A stretch of 64,000 bases of DNA from Sphingobium phenoxybenzoativorans. GTDB lineage: Bacteria > Pseudomonadota > Alphaproteobacteria > Sphingomonadales > Sphingomonadaceae. A program made the position numbers and the translations under genes. Below are positions 17,731 through 22,924 of this stretch, piece by piece (position 1 is the first letter of the stretch; each line of letters begins with the position of its first letter). The notes beneath the pieces are model-generated. The model saw nothing but the letters and a program-made list of their open reading frames with translations, made no database searches and was not told where the DNA came from. The stretch covers positions 186,001 to 250,000 of the forward strand of contig NZ_MINO01000001.1 of the NCBI RefSeq assembly GCF_001757355.1. The letters are read 5' to 3'.

Positions 17731-20700
17731 ATGCACCGTCCGGTATTCTATGACGAGAGCGGCCGCCGCAAGCGGCTGACCCTGCCGCTGGTGTTCGCGC
17801 TGATCCTGCTGATCCTCGCCGCCGCAACTGCCTTCGCCATCACGATCCTTGACGTGCCGACACCCGCGGCGCTCGCCCTAGATATGGAGCGCCCGCACCC
17901 GGAGCCGCTGGCGCAGCAAGTGGGAAGCATCGGCCACGCCCTGCGCAAGCGCGCTCATTCGGCGGGGCAGACGCTGCGCAACTGGCTTCCCGCATTGTCC
18001 GCCCATCCGGTCCATCCGGTCAGCGTCGGCTTCTATGTCCCCTGGGATGACGCAAGCCGCTCCTCGCTGCGCCGTCATGTCGGCGCGCTCGATTGGGTTG
18101 CGCCCTCGCTCCTGTCGGTCACTGGCCCCGCTCACCAGCTTCGCGTGACCCGCGATCCGCAGTTCGACGCCATCGTCCGCCACGGCGCGCGCCGTCCCCG
18201 CATCCTGCCGGTCGTCCAGAATGTCGTCGACGGCGCGTGGGAAGGGACGAACATGGCCGCATTGCTCCATTCCCCCGCCGCCCGCGCAACCCTGCTCGAC
18301 CGGCTGGTTCCGGTCCTGACTGGAATGAAGGCGCGGGGCGTGGTCTTTGATTTTGAGGCGCTGCCCGCTTCCGCCCAGCATGACTATCTCGCCTTCCTGA
18401 ACGAAGCGGCCGCCCGTTTCCATCCGCATGGCTGGCTGGTGACCGCCACGGTCCCGGTCGACGATATGGACTGGAACCTGTCCGCCTATGCCCGCGCCGC
18501 CGACCGGCTGTTCCTGATGGATTATGACCAGCATTATATCGGCGACGCCCCCGGCCCGATCGCCGCCCAGCCATGGTTCGTCGCCCACTTGCGCCACGCG
18601 CTGGAACAAGTGCCCGCCGCCAGGGCGATCGTCGCTATCGGCAATTACGGCTATGACTGGACGGACGGACAGCCCGCCGCCGATGCGGTTTCGATAGAGG
18701 ATGCATGGCTGACCGCCCATGATTCCGGCGCGCCGATCCGGTTCGACGCCGCCACCGGCAACGCTGCCTTTGATTATGCCGAGGACGGCCACACCCACCA
18801 TGTCTGGATGCTGGACGCCGCCAGCGCCTGGAACCAGATCCGCGCCGCGCGGCAGGCGGGGGCGGGGGGCGTCGCGCTCTGGCGGCTGGGGTCGGAGGAT
18901 CCCGGTTTCTGGCCAGCGCTCAAGGATCGCACGGGCGCCATCCCGGCCGAAATGAATCGCCTCACCAGCCTCAATTCCGTCGATGTGGAGGGCAATGGCG
19001 AGATACTGCATATCGATGATGTGCCGACCACCGGCAACCGCACCCTGCGCCTCGACCATGGCCTGGTCACAGATGAGCGATATCGCGCGCTGCCCACGCC
19101 CTATGTCATCCGCCGCACCGGCTATCGTCCGGGGCAGGTCGCCCTGACATTCGATGACGGTCCCGACGCGGTATGGACGCCGCAGATACTGTCCATCCTG
19201 AAGCGCGCGCATGTGCCCGCAACCTTCTTCGTCATCGGCGAAAATGCGATGCCGCATCCCGGCCTGTTGCGCGCGATCCTTGCGCAAGGCAGCGAGATTG
19301 GCAGCCACAGCTACACGCACCCCAATCTCGCGCAGGTTTCCCCTGAAGGCGCGCGGATAGAGCTGAACTCCACCCAGCGCTTGATAGAGGCCTATACCGG
19401 CCGTTCCGTCCGCCTGTTCCGCGCACCCTATTTCGGCGACGCCGAACCGACGACTGCGGACGAGATCGGCCCGGCGCTGGAGGCGCAGAATGCCGGTTAT
19501 GTGAATGTCGGCCTGCATGTCGATCCCGGCGACTGGACCCGGCCCGGCGCAGACGCCATCGTTTCGCGCACCATCGCGCAAGTGGAAGCGGGCAACGCCG
19601 AACGCTCCGGCCAGATCATCTTGCTCCACGACAGCGGCGGAGACCGGGCGCAGACGGTGGCCGCGCTCCCCCGCATCATCGCCGCGCTCCGGGCGAGGGG
19701 CTATCAGTTCGTCCCCGTCTCCAGCCTCGCCGGGCTTACCCCCGCTCAGGTCATGCCGCCGGTCAGGGGCGCGGACCTGCTCGCCGTCCGGGTGGATGTC
19801 GGCATATTCCTGACCTTGGCGGCCATTTCGGTCGCGCTCAAATGGCTGTTCTTCGCCGTCATCCTGTTCGGCATGGCGCGGGCGGTGATGCTGGCCGCGC
19901 TGGCGCTGGGCAGCCGGATGAAGCGCAACCGCGTCACGCCGCCGCCGGTTGATACGGGCCTGTTCGTCTCCGTCCTCATCCCCGCCTTCAATGAGGCAAA
20001 GGTGATCGAGGCGTCGGTGCGCCGGGTGCTGGAAAGCCGGGACGTCTCGCTGGAGGTCATTGTCGTCGATGACGGGTCGACGGACGGCACCAGCGATATC
20101 GTCGCCGCCGCCTTTGCGAACGAGGACCGGGTCGGCCTGCTCACGTTGAAAAATGGGGGCAAGGCGGCCGCGCTCAACGCCGCGCTCCAATATGCCAGGG
20201 CGCCGATCATCGTCGCGCTGGACGCCGACACCCAGTTCGAACCGCTCACGATCGCGCGTCTCGCCCGCTGGTTCGCCGATCCGGATATCGGCGCAGTGGC
20301 GGGCAACGCGATGGTGGGCAACCGGGTCAACCTTGTCACCCGCTGGCAGGCGGTGGAATATGTAACGGCCCAAAATCTGGAACGCCGTGCGCTTGCCCGG
20401 TTCGACGCGATCACGGTCGTCCCCGGCGCGGTGGGCGCATGGCGCAGGGCCGCGCTGGATGATGTCGGCGGCTATCCGCTCGACACGTTGGCGGAGGATC
20501 AGGACCTCACCATCGCCATCCAGCGTCAGGGCTGGCGCATCGCCTATGATACGGAGGCGGTCGCCTGGACCGAAGCGCCGGAAAGCTTCCGCGCCCTGTC
20601 CAAACAGCGGTTCCGCTGGGCCTATGGCACGCTGCAGTGCCTGTGGAAGCATCGCGGCATCTGGCGAAACGGCCGACCGGCCGGCCTGTCATGGGTAGGA

Positions 20701-21099
20701 TTGCCCCAGGCATGGCTGTTCCAGATCGGTTTCGCCATGATCTCGCCGATCATCGACCTTGCGCTGGTCCTCAGCATGATCGACACGGCCGTCCGCGTGC
20801 ATCAGCATGGCTGGGCGCAGACGCAGAGCGACCTGCTGCGCATGGCGCTTTACTGGCTGGCCTTTACGGCCGTGGATGTCGCCTGCGGCTGGGTCGCCTA
20901 CCGGCTTGAACCGCGCGCGCCCCGCTATCCGGCGCTGCTGCTCGTGGCCCAGCGCTTTATCTACCGCCAGATCATGTACGGCGTCGTCATTCGCGCTGTC
21001 GCTACCGCGATCGGCGGGCCATGGGTGGGCTGGGGCAAGCTGGAGCGCACAGGACGGGTCGCGCAGGCGCAGTCGCCGGACCGGCTGGTGAAGGCGTGA
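17731..21099 (+). CDS. GH18-like + NodB deacetylase + GT2 membrane fusion protein
   Basis: One 1122-residue frame holds three enzymes. After an N-terminal transmembrane helix (about 17-39) comes a GH18-like TIM-barrel domain (about 85-405) with a DxE-type motif in GVVFDFEAL (about 203-211). Next is a NodB polysaccharide deacetylase (about 465-665) with LTFDDGPD, GSHSYTHPN and RLFRAPYF. After a transmembrane stretch (about 690-726) comes a processive GT2 domain with SVLIPAFNE (747), DDGSTDG, LDADTQF, AEDQDL and QRFRW (959), then further C-terminal helices. The parts suggest synthesis and editing of a beta-linked N-acetylglucosamine-type polysaccharide at the inner membrane. It starts 147 bp after gspO and is probably not part of the secretion machine. 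Confidence 0.9.
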   Translation: MHRPVFYDESGRRKRLTLPLVFALILLILAAATAFAITILDVPTPAALALDMERPHPEPLAQQVGSIGHALRKRAHSAGQTLRNWLPALSAHPVHPVSVGFYVPWDDASRSSLRRHVGALDWVAPSLLSVTGPAHQLRVTRDPQFDAIVRHGARRPRILPVVQNVVDGAWEGTNMAALLHSPAARATLLDRLVPVLTGMKARGVVFDFEALPASAQHDYLAFLNEAAARFHPHGWLVTATVPVDDMDWNLSAYARAADRLFLMDYDQHYIGDAPGPIAAQPWFVAHLRHALEQVPAARAIVAIGNYGYDWTDGQPAADAVSIEDAWLTAHDSGAPIRFDAATGNAAFDYAEDGHTHHVWMLDAASAWNQIRAARQAGAGGVALWRLGSEDPGFWPALKDRTGAIPAEMNRLTSLNSVDVEGNGEILHIDDVPTTGNRTLRLDHGLVTDERYRALPTPYVIRRTGYRPGQVALTFDDGPDAVWTPQILSILKRAHVPATFFVIGENAMPHPGLLRAILAQGSEIGSHSYTHPNLAQVSPEGARIELNSTQRLIEAYTGRSVRLFRAPYFGDAEPTTADEIGPALEAQNAGYVNVGLHVDPGDWTRPGADAIVSRTIAQVEAGNAERSGQIILLHDSGGDRAQTVAALPRIIAALRARGYQFVPVSSLAGLTPAQVMPPVRGADLLAVRVDVGIFLTLAAISVALKWLFFAVILFGMARAVMLAALALGSRMKRNRVTPPPVDTGLFVSVLIPAFNEAKVIEASVRRVLESRDVSLEVIVVDDGSTDGTSDIVAAAFANEDRVGLLTLKNGGKAAALNAALQYARAPIIVALDADTQFEPLTIARLARWFADPDIGAVAGNAMVGNRVNLVTRWQAVEYVTAQNLERRALARFDAITVVPGAVGAWRRAALDDVGGYPLDTLAEDQDLTIAIQRQGWRIAYDTEAVAWTEAPESFRALSKQRFRWAYGTLQCLWKHRGIWRNGRPAGLSWVGLPQAWLFQIGFAMISPIIDLALVLSMIDTAVRVHQHGWAQTQSDLLRMALYWLAFTAVDVACGWVAYRLEPRAPRYPALLLVAQRFIYRQIMYGVVIRAVATAIGGPWVGWGKLERTGRVAQAQSPDRLVKA

Positions 21100-21125
21100 A
21101 TATCGGCGTTGATTAGCGCCTTTAG

Positions 21126-21219
21126 TTCGTCATCCCGGCGAAAGCCGGGACCCAACACGCCTCCGGCAAGCTGCTTATATTGAGGCGATATGGGTTCCGG
21201 CTTTCGCCGGAATGACGAA
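21126..21219. repeat. Bipartite REP-like element
   Basis: TTCGTCATCCCGGCGAAAGC (21126-21145, continuing CGGGACCCA) is mirrored by TGGGTTCCGGCTTTCGCCGG (21191-21210, continuing AATGACGAA). Each half is itself a hairpin, and together they form a long inverted repeat. It lies just downstream of the polysaccharide-enzyme stop and may end or protect that transcript. Confidence 0.82.
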
Positions 21220-21335
21220 TGAAGGAAGAATGGCGGACCTTCCGCTCCTCTGTCCTACAGTCCGGCCATCCTGTTATTCCATTGCCATGCTTCAGCCCGT
21301 CTCAGCCATATCGACCGCGCCTCTGCGTTGCGTCC

Positions 21336-21511
21336 GTGCGACGAAATCAAGACCTGACTGGGACTCGACTGCGACGTGGATGAGACTCAGGTGCGACCAA
21401 CATGAGACTCAGATGCGACGCAAGTGCGACGCACATGAGACTCAAGTGAGACGCATATGCGACGAAGGTGAGACGCACATGAGACCTACATGCGACCTTA
21501 TTGCGACTTTC
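21336..21511. repeat. 16-unit degenerate 11-bp tandem array
   Basis: The stretch divides without slippage into 16 units of exactly 11 bp, consensus RTGMGACBCAN. Examples are ATGAGACTCAG (21380 and 21402), GTGCGACGCAC (21424) and GTGAGACGCAT (21446). Units carrying TGAGAC would give a TGA codon, yet every third unit (21358, 21391, 21424, 21457, 21490) lacks it, so one plus-strand frame stays open. In that frame the array reads as an 11-residue repeat of the form MRRKCDAHETQ. The 500-bp convergent gap it occupies has no established gene. An ORF from 21230 (ATG after GAAGGAAG) to 21676 runs through it but may be an artefact. Confidence 0.9.
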
Positions 21512-21592
21512 CGGGTCAAAATGCGTCACAACCCGCAACTTCCGCAACTTCGTTGGAATTGCAGCATAGCGTTGCGCCGAAAAACTGCCGGT

Positions 21593-22924
21593 TCAGTCGC
21601 GCGCGGCCGCCAGCTCCTTGTTGGCCCGCAGCGCCACCAGCGTACAGATCGCGCCGGACAGCAGATAGGCACCTGATGAGAACAGCCCGAAATTGCTGGA
21701 CAGCCACAGCGCCCAGAAGGGCGCAAAGCCCGCGCCGAACATCCATGCTAGGTCAGACGTCAGCGCCGATCCGGTATAGCGCGTCTGTTGCGAGAAGTTC
21801 GACGCGACGACGCCGGACGATTGGCCAAAGGACAGGCCGAGCAACATGAAGCCCAGCACCATGAACGCCACTTCGCCCAGATCGCCGCCATTGAGCAGCA
21901 GCGGCGCGAAGATGCTGAACAGCGCAATCCCGCCCGCCGACCAGCCAAGCAGAGACCGGCGGCCGATCTGGTCTGCGATAAAGCCCGATGCAACGATGGC
22001 CAGCACGCCCACAGCGCCGCCGATGATCTCGATGATCAGGAAGCGTTCGATCGATTCCTTGGTGAACAGCGCCACCCAGGAGAGGGGGAACACCGTCACC
22101 ATATGGAACAGCGCAAAGCTCGCCAGCGGCGCGAATGCCCCGATGATGATGTTGCGCCCTTCCGCCTTGACCGTCGGGATAACGGGGGAGGGAACAAGGT
22201 CCCTGCTCTCGAACAGCCGCTCAAACTCATGCGTCACGACGATGCGCAACCGGGCGAACAGCGCCACCACATTGATCGCGAAGGCGACGAAGAAAGGATA
22301 GCGCCAGCCCCAGTCGAGGAAGTCGGCGGGCGAGAGCGTCGACCAGAAATAGGCGAACAGCGCCGCCACCACGGTCAACGCCAGCGGCGCACCAAGCTGC
22401 GGCATCATCGCATACCAGCCGCGCTTGTTCTGCGGCGCGTTGAGGGAGAGGAGGGAGGCGAGGCCGTCCCATGTGCCGCCCAGCGCAAAGCCCTGCCCGG
22501 CGCGGAACAGGGTCAGCAGCACGGCGGAGGCATGGCCGATTGTCTCATATCCGGGAAGGAAGGCGATGGCGGCTGTCGATCCGCCCAGCAGGAACAGCGC
22601 GATAGTCAGCTTCACGCCCCGGCCATAGGTGCGGTCGACCCACATGAAGAAGAAGGACCCCATCGGCCGCGCGACGAAGGCGATGGCGAAGATGGCGAAG
22701 GAATAGAGCGTGCCCGTCAGCGCATCGACATAGGGAAAGACCAGCCGGGGAAAGACCAGGATGGAGGCGACGGCATAAACAAAGAAGTCGAAAAATTCGG
22801 ACGTGCGGCCGATGATGACGCCGATGGCGATCTCGCCGGGCACCACCTGCTTGTGCCGCGCGGTGATGTTCCGGGCGTCGCGCTCCATGTCGGTGGAGGA
22901 GGGGGCGGCAATCTGGGCGCTCAT
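21593..22924 (-). CDS. MFS transporter, metabolite:H+ symporter type
   Basis: The ATG at 22924 gives 443 residues with about 12 transmembrane helices. It opens with VPGEIAIGVIIGRTSEFFDFFVYAVAS, a pattern of the MHS subfamily (sugar and organic-acid:proton symporters, relatives of ShiA, ProP and KgtP). Loop motifs include FVARPMGSFFFMWVDRTYGR after helix 2 and FADQIGRRSLLG-like text after helix 8. The frame is open much further upstream, but that part overlaps the cyoA region and is not real. The substrate is unknown. It is divergent from cyoA, across a 204-bp control region. Confidence 0.9.
   Translation of the reverse strand: MSAQIAAPSSTDMERDARNITARHKQVVPGEIAIGVIIGRTSEFFDFFVYAVASILVFPRLVFPYVDALTGTLYSFAIFAIAFVARPMGSFFFMWVDRTYGRGVKLTIALFLLGGSTAAIAFLPGYETIGHASAVLLTLFRAGQGFALGGTWDGLASLLSLNAPQNKRGWYAMMPQLGAPLALTVVAALFAYFWSTLSPADFLDWGWRYPFFVAFAINVVALFARLRIVVTHEFERLFESRDLVPSPVIPTVKAEGRNIIIGAFAPLASFALFHMVTVFPLSWVALFTKESIERFLIIEIIGGAVGVLAIVASGFIADQIGRRSLLGWSAGGIALFSIFAPLLLNGGDLGEVAFMVLGFMLLGLSFGQSSGVVASNFSQQTRYTGSALTSDLAWMFGAGFAPFWALWLSSNFGLFSSGAYLLSGAICTLVALRANKELAAARD

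Follow-up and report, generated by a model that had tools for sequence, protein, structure and literature searches.

An 11-bp tandem array in Sphingobium phenoxybenzoativorans as the likely 3' module of a multi-copy chromosomal element that has lost its HTH gene at this locus

Results

The array and its neighbours

The stretch of DNA analysed here (the window) comprises 64,000 nt of Sphingobium phenoxybenzoativorans (GCF_001757355.1, contig NZ_MINO01000001.1, 186,001-250,000), and all positions are numbered within it. The array lies between a convergent gene pair, the left gene ending at 21099 and the right gene at 21593, and the locus contains the following features, with columns counted from the left box:

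17731..21099, plus strand: left neighbour gene, 1122 aa (from the ORF list)
21250..21259, plus strand: left box CTGTCCTACA, upstream promoter box of the element, an exact 10-mer
21272..21277, plus strand: TGTTAT, extended -10-like motif (TGnTAnnnT geometry), with TGnT at column 23
21287..21676, plus strand: putative leaderless ORF, 129 aa, reading the whole array as an 11-residue repeat; ATG at column 38
21336..21511, plus strand: tandem array, 16 x 11 bp, unit TGVGACBYANR (direct reading and TRF)
21533..21552, plus strand: end module CCGCAACTTCCGCAACTTCG, with copies at no more than one mismatch elsewhere in the genome
21593..22924, minus strand: right neighbour gene, convergent (gene calling)

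From their sequences we take the left neighbour to encode a polysaccharide deacetylase plus glycosyltransferase, and the right neighbour is presumably an MFS-type transporter. The right neighbour gene is present in most genomes of the genus; in the Sphingobium loci that were read to look for an empty site of the window element, it is flanked by different neighbours.

A first-pass annotation of the window had described sixteen 11-bp units between convergent genes, six of them carrying TGAGAC and those at 21358, 21391, 21424, 21457 and 21490 carrying TGGGAC or TGCGAC; direct reading agrees on each point, with the qualification that the second unit is degenerate (a stricter counting rule gives 14 units). 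TRF finds periods of 11, 22 and 33 in the array, period 33 scoring 123. Immediately left of the element, at 21125-21228, are two palindromes resembling CGTC-type REPs (GTCATCCCGGCGAAAGCCGGGACCC and its partner), and similar palindromes are scattered across the genome. An RNA-family search returned only two sub-threshold matches, both on these neighbouring REP-like palindromes.

A dispersed family with common ends

BLAST and pattern searches place arrays of the same unit at 16 loci in this genome and at 8 in a sister Sphingobium, G458, a 78% complete MAG whose sequences are the same as those of MAG Sphingobium sp. nzgw534 at five loci. A two-unit pattern has 141 matches in this genome versus 1 for its reversed control. 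The 24 arrays of both genomes range from about 4 to 28 units and total 344 units, with 317 of 320 steps exactly 11 bp and three of 10 bp under a chaining rule that favours 11 bp; within the unit TGVGACBYANR, positions 1, 2, 4, 5 and 6 are nearly invariant. Because the units are contiguous, without spacers, at this near-constant step, the array is not a CRISPR, as had been said of it at the outset.

The arrays share flanking modules as well as a unit. The end module CCGCAACTTCCGCAACTTCG occurs in 27 copies at no more than one mismatch in this genome and in 11 copies in G458 (reversed control, 0); 16 of the 27 follow an array and 11 are without one, and in all 24 arrays the module begins 30, 31 or 41 bp past the start of the last unit. 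The left box CTGTCCTACA lies as an exact 10-mer on the same strand upstream of 21 of this genome's 27 end modules, 20 times within about 430 bp and once, on contig C89, at 617 bp. Among the 17 other genomic copies of CTGTCCTACA, TGnT occurs at column 22/23 in 2, ATG at column 38/39 in none and an end module in none. Terminal inverted repeats are a mark of MITEs; by eye, the left box and the end module show no inverted repeat. A left-module hairpin, CCATG-N-CATGG, has modest support (3 double changes, a score matched by 6 of 500 shuffles), and a type-B 3' hairpin is paired in 89% of cells with no double change.

Elements free of arrays (L024-L028, L295-L300, L158, L168, L174) mostly have left box and end module in common and differ in their middles; several contain a GAAGTTGCGGG...CCCGCAACTTC hairpin, and in L025/L174, L298 and L168 an ORF starts at the expected ATG.

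The first-pass annotation had offered a 33-bp duplication history as one source of the open frame. Position 3 shows raised similarity between units at lag 3 (z +4.7) and lag 6 (z +4.0), and position 9 at lag 2 and lag 3; positions 7, 10 and 11 show no rise at lags 3 and 6. Since lag-3 similarity is not common to positions 7, 10 and 11, we reject the idea that the open frame arose from 33-bp duplication. With all variable positions pooled, similarity is raised at lag 2 (z 6.1) as well as at lag 3 (z 4.4), and some block duplication of two or three units is therefore likely. Counts at positions 3 and 7, where palindromic pairing inside the unit would show, fit independence except for one rare G/C combination.

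Start site and open frame

Nineteen array elements have a left box within 450 bp, and in all 19 TGnT stands at column 23 and an ATG falls within columns 34-48. In 17 of them the first ATG occupies column 38 or 39, the exceptions being L014 (column 43) and L176 (columns 35 and 39). By this geometry the ATG should coincide with the transcription start expected from an extended -10 element. Reading from the first ATG, the ORF covers 60% or more of the units in 14 of the 19 (mean fraction 0.76), as against 2 and 4 of 19 for the other two frames (means 0.17 and 0.36); the five that fail are L010, L016, L160, L172 and L176. In the window, the ORF from ATG 21287 reads 14 of 14 strictly counted units and the other frames read 2 and 0. 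The G458 orthologue of the window array, L170, keeps both the equivalent of ATG 21287 and its frame, which contains a TAG upstream of the ATG. The family's promoter geometry, together with this conservation beside an upstream TAG, leads us to prefer 21287 as the likely start over ATG 21230, which the first-pass annotation had chosen for its Cys-containing repeat peptide and which is not needed. Pfam and NCBIfam give no family above cut-off for the longer same-frame ORF (21212-21676). A structure model of the window ORF (pLDDT 49.5) has a helix spanning most of the array.

That one frame is kept open, as first claimed, holds beyond chance and is visible only over the family: taken by itself, the window array would still have an open frame with probability 0.12 once its unit order is shuffled. 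An open forward frame is found in 16 of 18 arrays of at least 13 units (two of which contain 10-bp steps and were joined as 11-mers for this test), compared with a mean of 4.04 after shuffling, and 0 of 500 shuffles reach 16. In the real DNA the longest open run takes up 94-100% of the array in the same 16; the mean is 96%, versus 76% for shuffled order, and the two exceptions are L012 (79%) and L013 (68%, shuffled mean 70%). Across 17 letter-position combinations the only one depleted by class is A at position 3, the letter that makes TGA. It is depleted modulo 3 in 14 of 16 strictly phased arrays, a value reached by 0 of 2000 shuffles, and no such depletion is seen at moduli 2, 4, 5 or 6. 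TAA and TAG at positions 8-10 behave likewise, with 0 of 70 in the stop register versus 12 of 137 elsewhere (P 0.006; frame set from TGA alone in 13 arrays, four with zero or more than one TGA-free frame being skipped); a cruder choice of frame gives 1/75 versus 13/147 (P 0.022). In non-redundant sets of increasing strictness stop avoidance is found in 11/13, 10/11, 8/8 and 4/4 arrays, reached by 0, 0, 0 and 2 of 1000 shuffles.

Eleven is not a multiple of 3 but equals 2 modulo 3, so that successive units are read in three registers. Whichever frame is followed through a uniform array, the translation is therefore one and the same 11-residue repeat, with consensus C-D-[AV]-x-[EAG]-T-[QHYN]-[MV]-R-[RPL]-x. 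Gain or loss of a whole unit consequently leaves the peptide pattern intact, and inside the array the elements look alike even when their frames before and after it differ. Most of the open frames have no stop of their own and run on beyond the end module, SD-like starts are few, and no common N or C terminus was found among the array ORFs.

Core letters are kept at synonymous third positions, in GAC 64/65, VGA 63/65, GVG 63/64 and xxT 60/64, compared with at most 46/65 for synonymous sites that lie outside the core (position 3 set aside). The comparison of unit number between strains that had been proposed shows the window array and L170 differing by one whole 11-bp unit. The suggested test for codon-position substitution bias, made on this pair, gives 6, 9 and 10 differences at codon positions 1, 2 and 3, and with 5 synonymous and 13 non-synonymous codons no amino-acid purifying selection is seen between window and orthologue.

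The HTH gene and loci across the genus

One locus in each of the two genomes, on contig C89 here and at its orthologue in G458, still has a gene between promoter and array: left box, TGnT, ATG, an HTH ORF, array and end module are all present at both. The ORFs are 104 aa (C89, at L018:1654-1968) and 110 aa (G458) long and start MEQH. The C89 protein matches the PHROG 4044 terminase small subunit (E 5.6e-6), as do 29 of 29 aligned relatives (best E 4.9e-10), and 15 of the 29 match Pfam Terminase_2 at E <= 0.1 (best 2.5e-4). The MerR family is absent among the matches listed for the HTH protein in PHROG and Pfam. A single-sequence model of the G458 protein has four helices only (mean pLDDT 58), for a protein of about 95-110 aa across the family; Foldseek with the structure model gives a best E of 2.2, and the best PDB sequence-profile hits are adenylosuccinate lyase (E 0.059) and then LysR regulators (0.22).

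A strong HTH match (E <= 1e-15) is present in 39 of 94 genus genomes; of the remainder, 51 have weaker matches only, among which there may be other HTH proteins, and 4 have none. We fetched the best locus of each of 30 genomes, this genome and G458 included. In most, a promoter of CTGATCTATCCTGTCGG type immediately precedes the ATG, 23 of 30 have a GATYTAT-like promoter sequence, and the promoter of L361 contains the window's own left box. TG or CG stands at -16/-15 of the ATG in 29 of 30, with the start codon chosen partly by that motif. By raw count, 27 of the 30 loci have the end box, as ACGGTGTGAACTTCG or a local version, and its median distance past the stop is 142 bp. Between HTH stop and end box, lag-11 periodicity exceeds z 2 in 23 of 26 testable loci, and in the first 250 bp past the stop 11-bp periodicity exceeds z 3 in 17 of 29 versus 0 of 84 control stretches. 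A shared genus unit, [CT]GTCGCNTCNC, fits 24 HTH loci (score 78.3, versus 7.7-9.5 with letters shuffled); the window-clade unit matches this consensus moderately, with profile correlations of 0.58 on the reverse strand and 0.36 forward. Stretches that follow an HTH gene are open in 22 of 25, where shuffling gives a mean of 20.0 and 23 of 300 shuffles reach the observed count, which is little avoidance beyond composition.

Distribution and placement

The search of sphingomonad genomes suggested by the first-pass annotation located the family in this genome and G458; in a sample of 397 genomes of the taxonomic family, drawn evenly, the three-unit pattern occurs in this genome only. Among the 94 genus genomes the end module is found 27 times here, 11 times in G458 and twice in G397 (one mismatch each), and neither left box nor array lies within the 420 bp read at the G397 sites. 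With 24 of this genome's 27 elements compared, 9 of the 11 G458 end modules stand at sites orthologous to its elements, and one orthologous site (L012 / L158) has an array here and none in G458. Flank probes from this genome were found in G458 for 5 of 12, and none of those five stretches has element motifs: at L298 and L010 the element is absent with both flanks collinear, at L016 both flanks are present with other DNA between, and at L020 and L009 one flank each was recovered. The element-free orthologous sites in G458 are too diverged for a target-site duplication to be read.

The gene-less arrays mostly lie close to the 3' end of a gene oriented toward them. The right neighbour points toward the element in 17 of 24 elements in this genome and 9 of 11 in G458, orientation being taken from an automatic caller that probably miscalled two more in this genome (L013 and L014). 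For 13 of those 17 the distance between its stop codon and the end module is 16 to 58 bp. Several arrays are on contigs of 100-300 kb. Elements occur in mixed orientation even within one contig, so orientation does not simply follow replication.

HTH relatives were sought in 50,697 phage records (with two proteins) and 72,556 plasmid records (with one), without a match; in viral contigs 46 stretches matched a peptide pattern and none is a relative.

Other 11-bp arrays

A general TGNGAC grammar across phyla was considered and set aside. The pattern matches at least 114 stretches of the genome collection, most of them with 3-5 units. In viral contigs it gives 32 stretches, versus 8 for the reversed and 43 for the scrambled control, and since it is not clearly enriched over these controls we treat it as background. 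Among the matches listed, L069, L152 and L068, from unrelated phyla, are 11-bp arrays adjoining genes that by eye we take to be AlbA_2-like. Because such genes adjoin some 11-bp arrays elsewhere, an AlbA_2 autoregulated array was considered here and ruled out: PF04326 has 0 matches in this genome, and 5 of 14 control genomes are positive.

Several further arrays are observations in their own right. Bacteroidales and other MAGs (L047, L049, L057, L064, L098, L102, L126, L146) have dispersed TGGGACTTACT-type arrays of 4-5 units, which among the matches listed form a separate array family, lying after a CTTGTCCGC stretch and at several loci before GCGGACGG. At least 12 contigs of a Lentisphaera MAG bear 11-bp arrays of TTGGGACACAG type (L042, L061, L072, L077, L104, L110, L114, L120, L127, L136, L139, L145). 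In two Legionella species (L090, L115) three TGCGACACA-type units lie immediately upstream of a presumably integrase-like gene, reminiscent of integrase arm sites, and in Lyngbya/Microcoleus (L092, L101, L121, L134, L142) three or four TGAGACACAAT units occur at the same gene pair in several genomes.

Discussion

Many Sphingobium genomes contain a composite of promoter and ATG, HTH gene, 11-bp array and end box; of these parts the copy in the window lacks the HTH gene and retains promoter box, ATG, array and end box. Because the HTH loci carry the end box and the 11-bp periodicity, we read the window as holding a gene-less copy of the unit of HTH gene and array, and consider it likely that its array is the 3' DNA module of a multi-copy Sphingobium chromosomal element whose HTH gene has been lost here. 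In full form the element would run from a promoter with a leaderless ATG, through a small terminase-small-subunit-like HTH gene, to an 11-bp phased array and an end box.

The first-pass annotation had also raised a helically phased protein-binding array, which gains in likelihood from the many Sphingobium genomes in which a small HTH gene is followed by a stretch with 11-bp periodicity. The array would then be the binding site of the HTH protein, taking one molecule per helical turn, head to tail, and by analogy with BldC the proteins may bind cooperatively on one face of the helix; the constraint on core nucleotides at synonymous sites fits head-to-tail HTH binding. The single strong HTH copy, on contig C89, could act in trans on the gene-less arrays of this genome.

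In the gene-less copies the sequence comparisons support an arrangement in which the ATG would read into an array kept free of stops in one frame, usually that one. As stop codons are avoided in one frame, usually that of the ATG, these arrays are probably translated, which favours the repeat-peptide part of the original proposal. Since stop avoidance is hardly seen after intact HTH genes, translation looks like a property of the gene-less copies, in which promoter and ATG run straight into the array. The most inclusive version, in which a domesticated TerS-like HTH protein assembles head-to-tail on its own downstream array, one per helical turn, and in the Sphingobium clade of the window a single such protein controls more than 12 gene-less arrays near gene 3' ends, these forming in addition a frame-agnostic satellite translated from a leaderless start, is offered only tentatively, as a scenario that we find possible and do not favour outright.

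Were the arrays selected purely as peptide, TG-GAC would be conserved as the unit cycles through three codon registers, and every core position is indeed non-synonymous in two of the three. Stop-codon avoidance across arrays is in keeping with this, as are a composition at positions 7-11 that depends on register (random rotation reaches it in 2 to 42 of 1000) and the whole unit gained or lost between orthologues. For the gene-less arrays, register cycling alone could account for the core; it does not account for the periodic stretches behind an HTH stop codon. We still think a coding-only origin unlikely, given the periodic 11-bp stretches after the intact HTH stop codon in 23 of 26 loci, the lack of amino-acid conservation between window and L170 and array ORFs that share neither N nor C terminus. 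The converse, a phased protein-binding array acting purely at the DNA level with an accidental open frame, meets the opposite difficulty: the TGA-making A at position 3 is depleted only at modulus 3 (14/16 arrays, 0/2000 shuffles), TAA and TAG are independently depleted in the matching register (0/70 versus 12/137, P 0.006), and stop avoidance persists in the non-redundant sets (11/13, 10/11, 8/8, 4/4). An exact 11-bp step in 317/320, a near-invariant core and arrays 3' of an HTH gene in many genomes all suit a DNA-only array, which we nevertheless judge quite unlikely.

It is very improbable that the arrays are a neutral satellite, dispersed as a non-autonomous mobile element and now without function, for this would leave both the position-specific conservation and the stop avoidance to be explained, together with the 9 of 11 G458 end modules at orthologous sites (24 of 27 own elements compared). 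Block similarity of up to 15 units between arrays at different loci points toward such spread, as does the lack of an element at the G458 sites orthologous to L298 and L010, where both flanks are present, and many genomes have a background of 11-bp tandem repeats.

A gene-bearing element with gene-less array copies, the reading we prefer, has partial counterparts among known systems. BldC of Streptomyces, a MerR-like wHTH protein, is described as binding direct repeats head-to-tail and cooperatively, with repeats AATTXXXX(C) of about 9 bp, two or four per target-promoter site (PMC5859096). The likeness would lie in the very small size of the HTH protein, which lacks a separate dimerisation domain, and in direct repeats of varying number; here, in contrast, units are 11 bp, number about 4-28 and lie 3' of the gene, and the HTH is TerS-like and not MerR. 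With phage packaging, where the P22 pac site is located inside the TerS gene (PMC9611059), the resemblance is that of HTH sequence (PHROG 4044 in 29/29). As to the central oligomerisation domain and stalk of TerS, the single-sequence model of the G458 protein shows four helices only. The present element is chromosomal, however, and its protein of about 95-110 aa is mostly N-terminal tail plus HTH; it is not a TerS-pac system in the phage sense.

REP/RAYT systems, as described in PMC3733652, combine a Y1 transposase gene locus with dispersed gene-less repeats, tagged palindromes often found between convergent or unidirectional genes. A gene-bearing locus with repeats and dispersed gene-less intergenic copies is common to both, although here the protein beside the repeats is an HTH protein instead of a Y1 transposase and the repeats are phased and direct instead of a tagged palindrome; the left box CTGTCCTACA reads GTAG, the tag of REP hairpins, on the opposite strand. 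In plasmid centromeres of the ParR/parC type, 11-bp direct repeats adjoin the gene for a small DNA-binding protein with a ribbon-helix-helix fold. Our element likewise sets 11-bp direct-repeat arrays next to a gene for a small DNA-binding protein, and differs in that here there are many chromosomal copies and an HTH in place of the ribbon-helix-helix. On the coding side, DRT2 neo is reported to have a stop-free repetitive frame through repeat junctions, with units that are multiples of 3 and arise by reverse transcription (PMC12039810); the stop-free repetitive frame is shared, whereas the unit here is 11 bp and lies in genomic DNA. PARCEL comprises dispersed DNA repeats with coding constraint and a 25-residue repeat (PMC2996958), and is likewise a dispersed repeat under coding constraint, differing in repeat length, sequence and hosts.

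A unit of HTH gene and 11-bp array was not found in the open-access literature, in a search little of which was aimed at the HTH gene, and the element is apparently undescribed. In it an HTH of phage type would be joined with a helically phased array and a leaderless gene as one chromosomal unit of Sphingobium. Its natural arrays of about 4 to 28 sites would suit tests of cooperative filament binding, and its gene-less copies would offer a clean case of a repeat whose length is not a multiple of three and that still codes, where the gain or loss of units rotates the same peptide.
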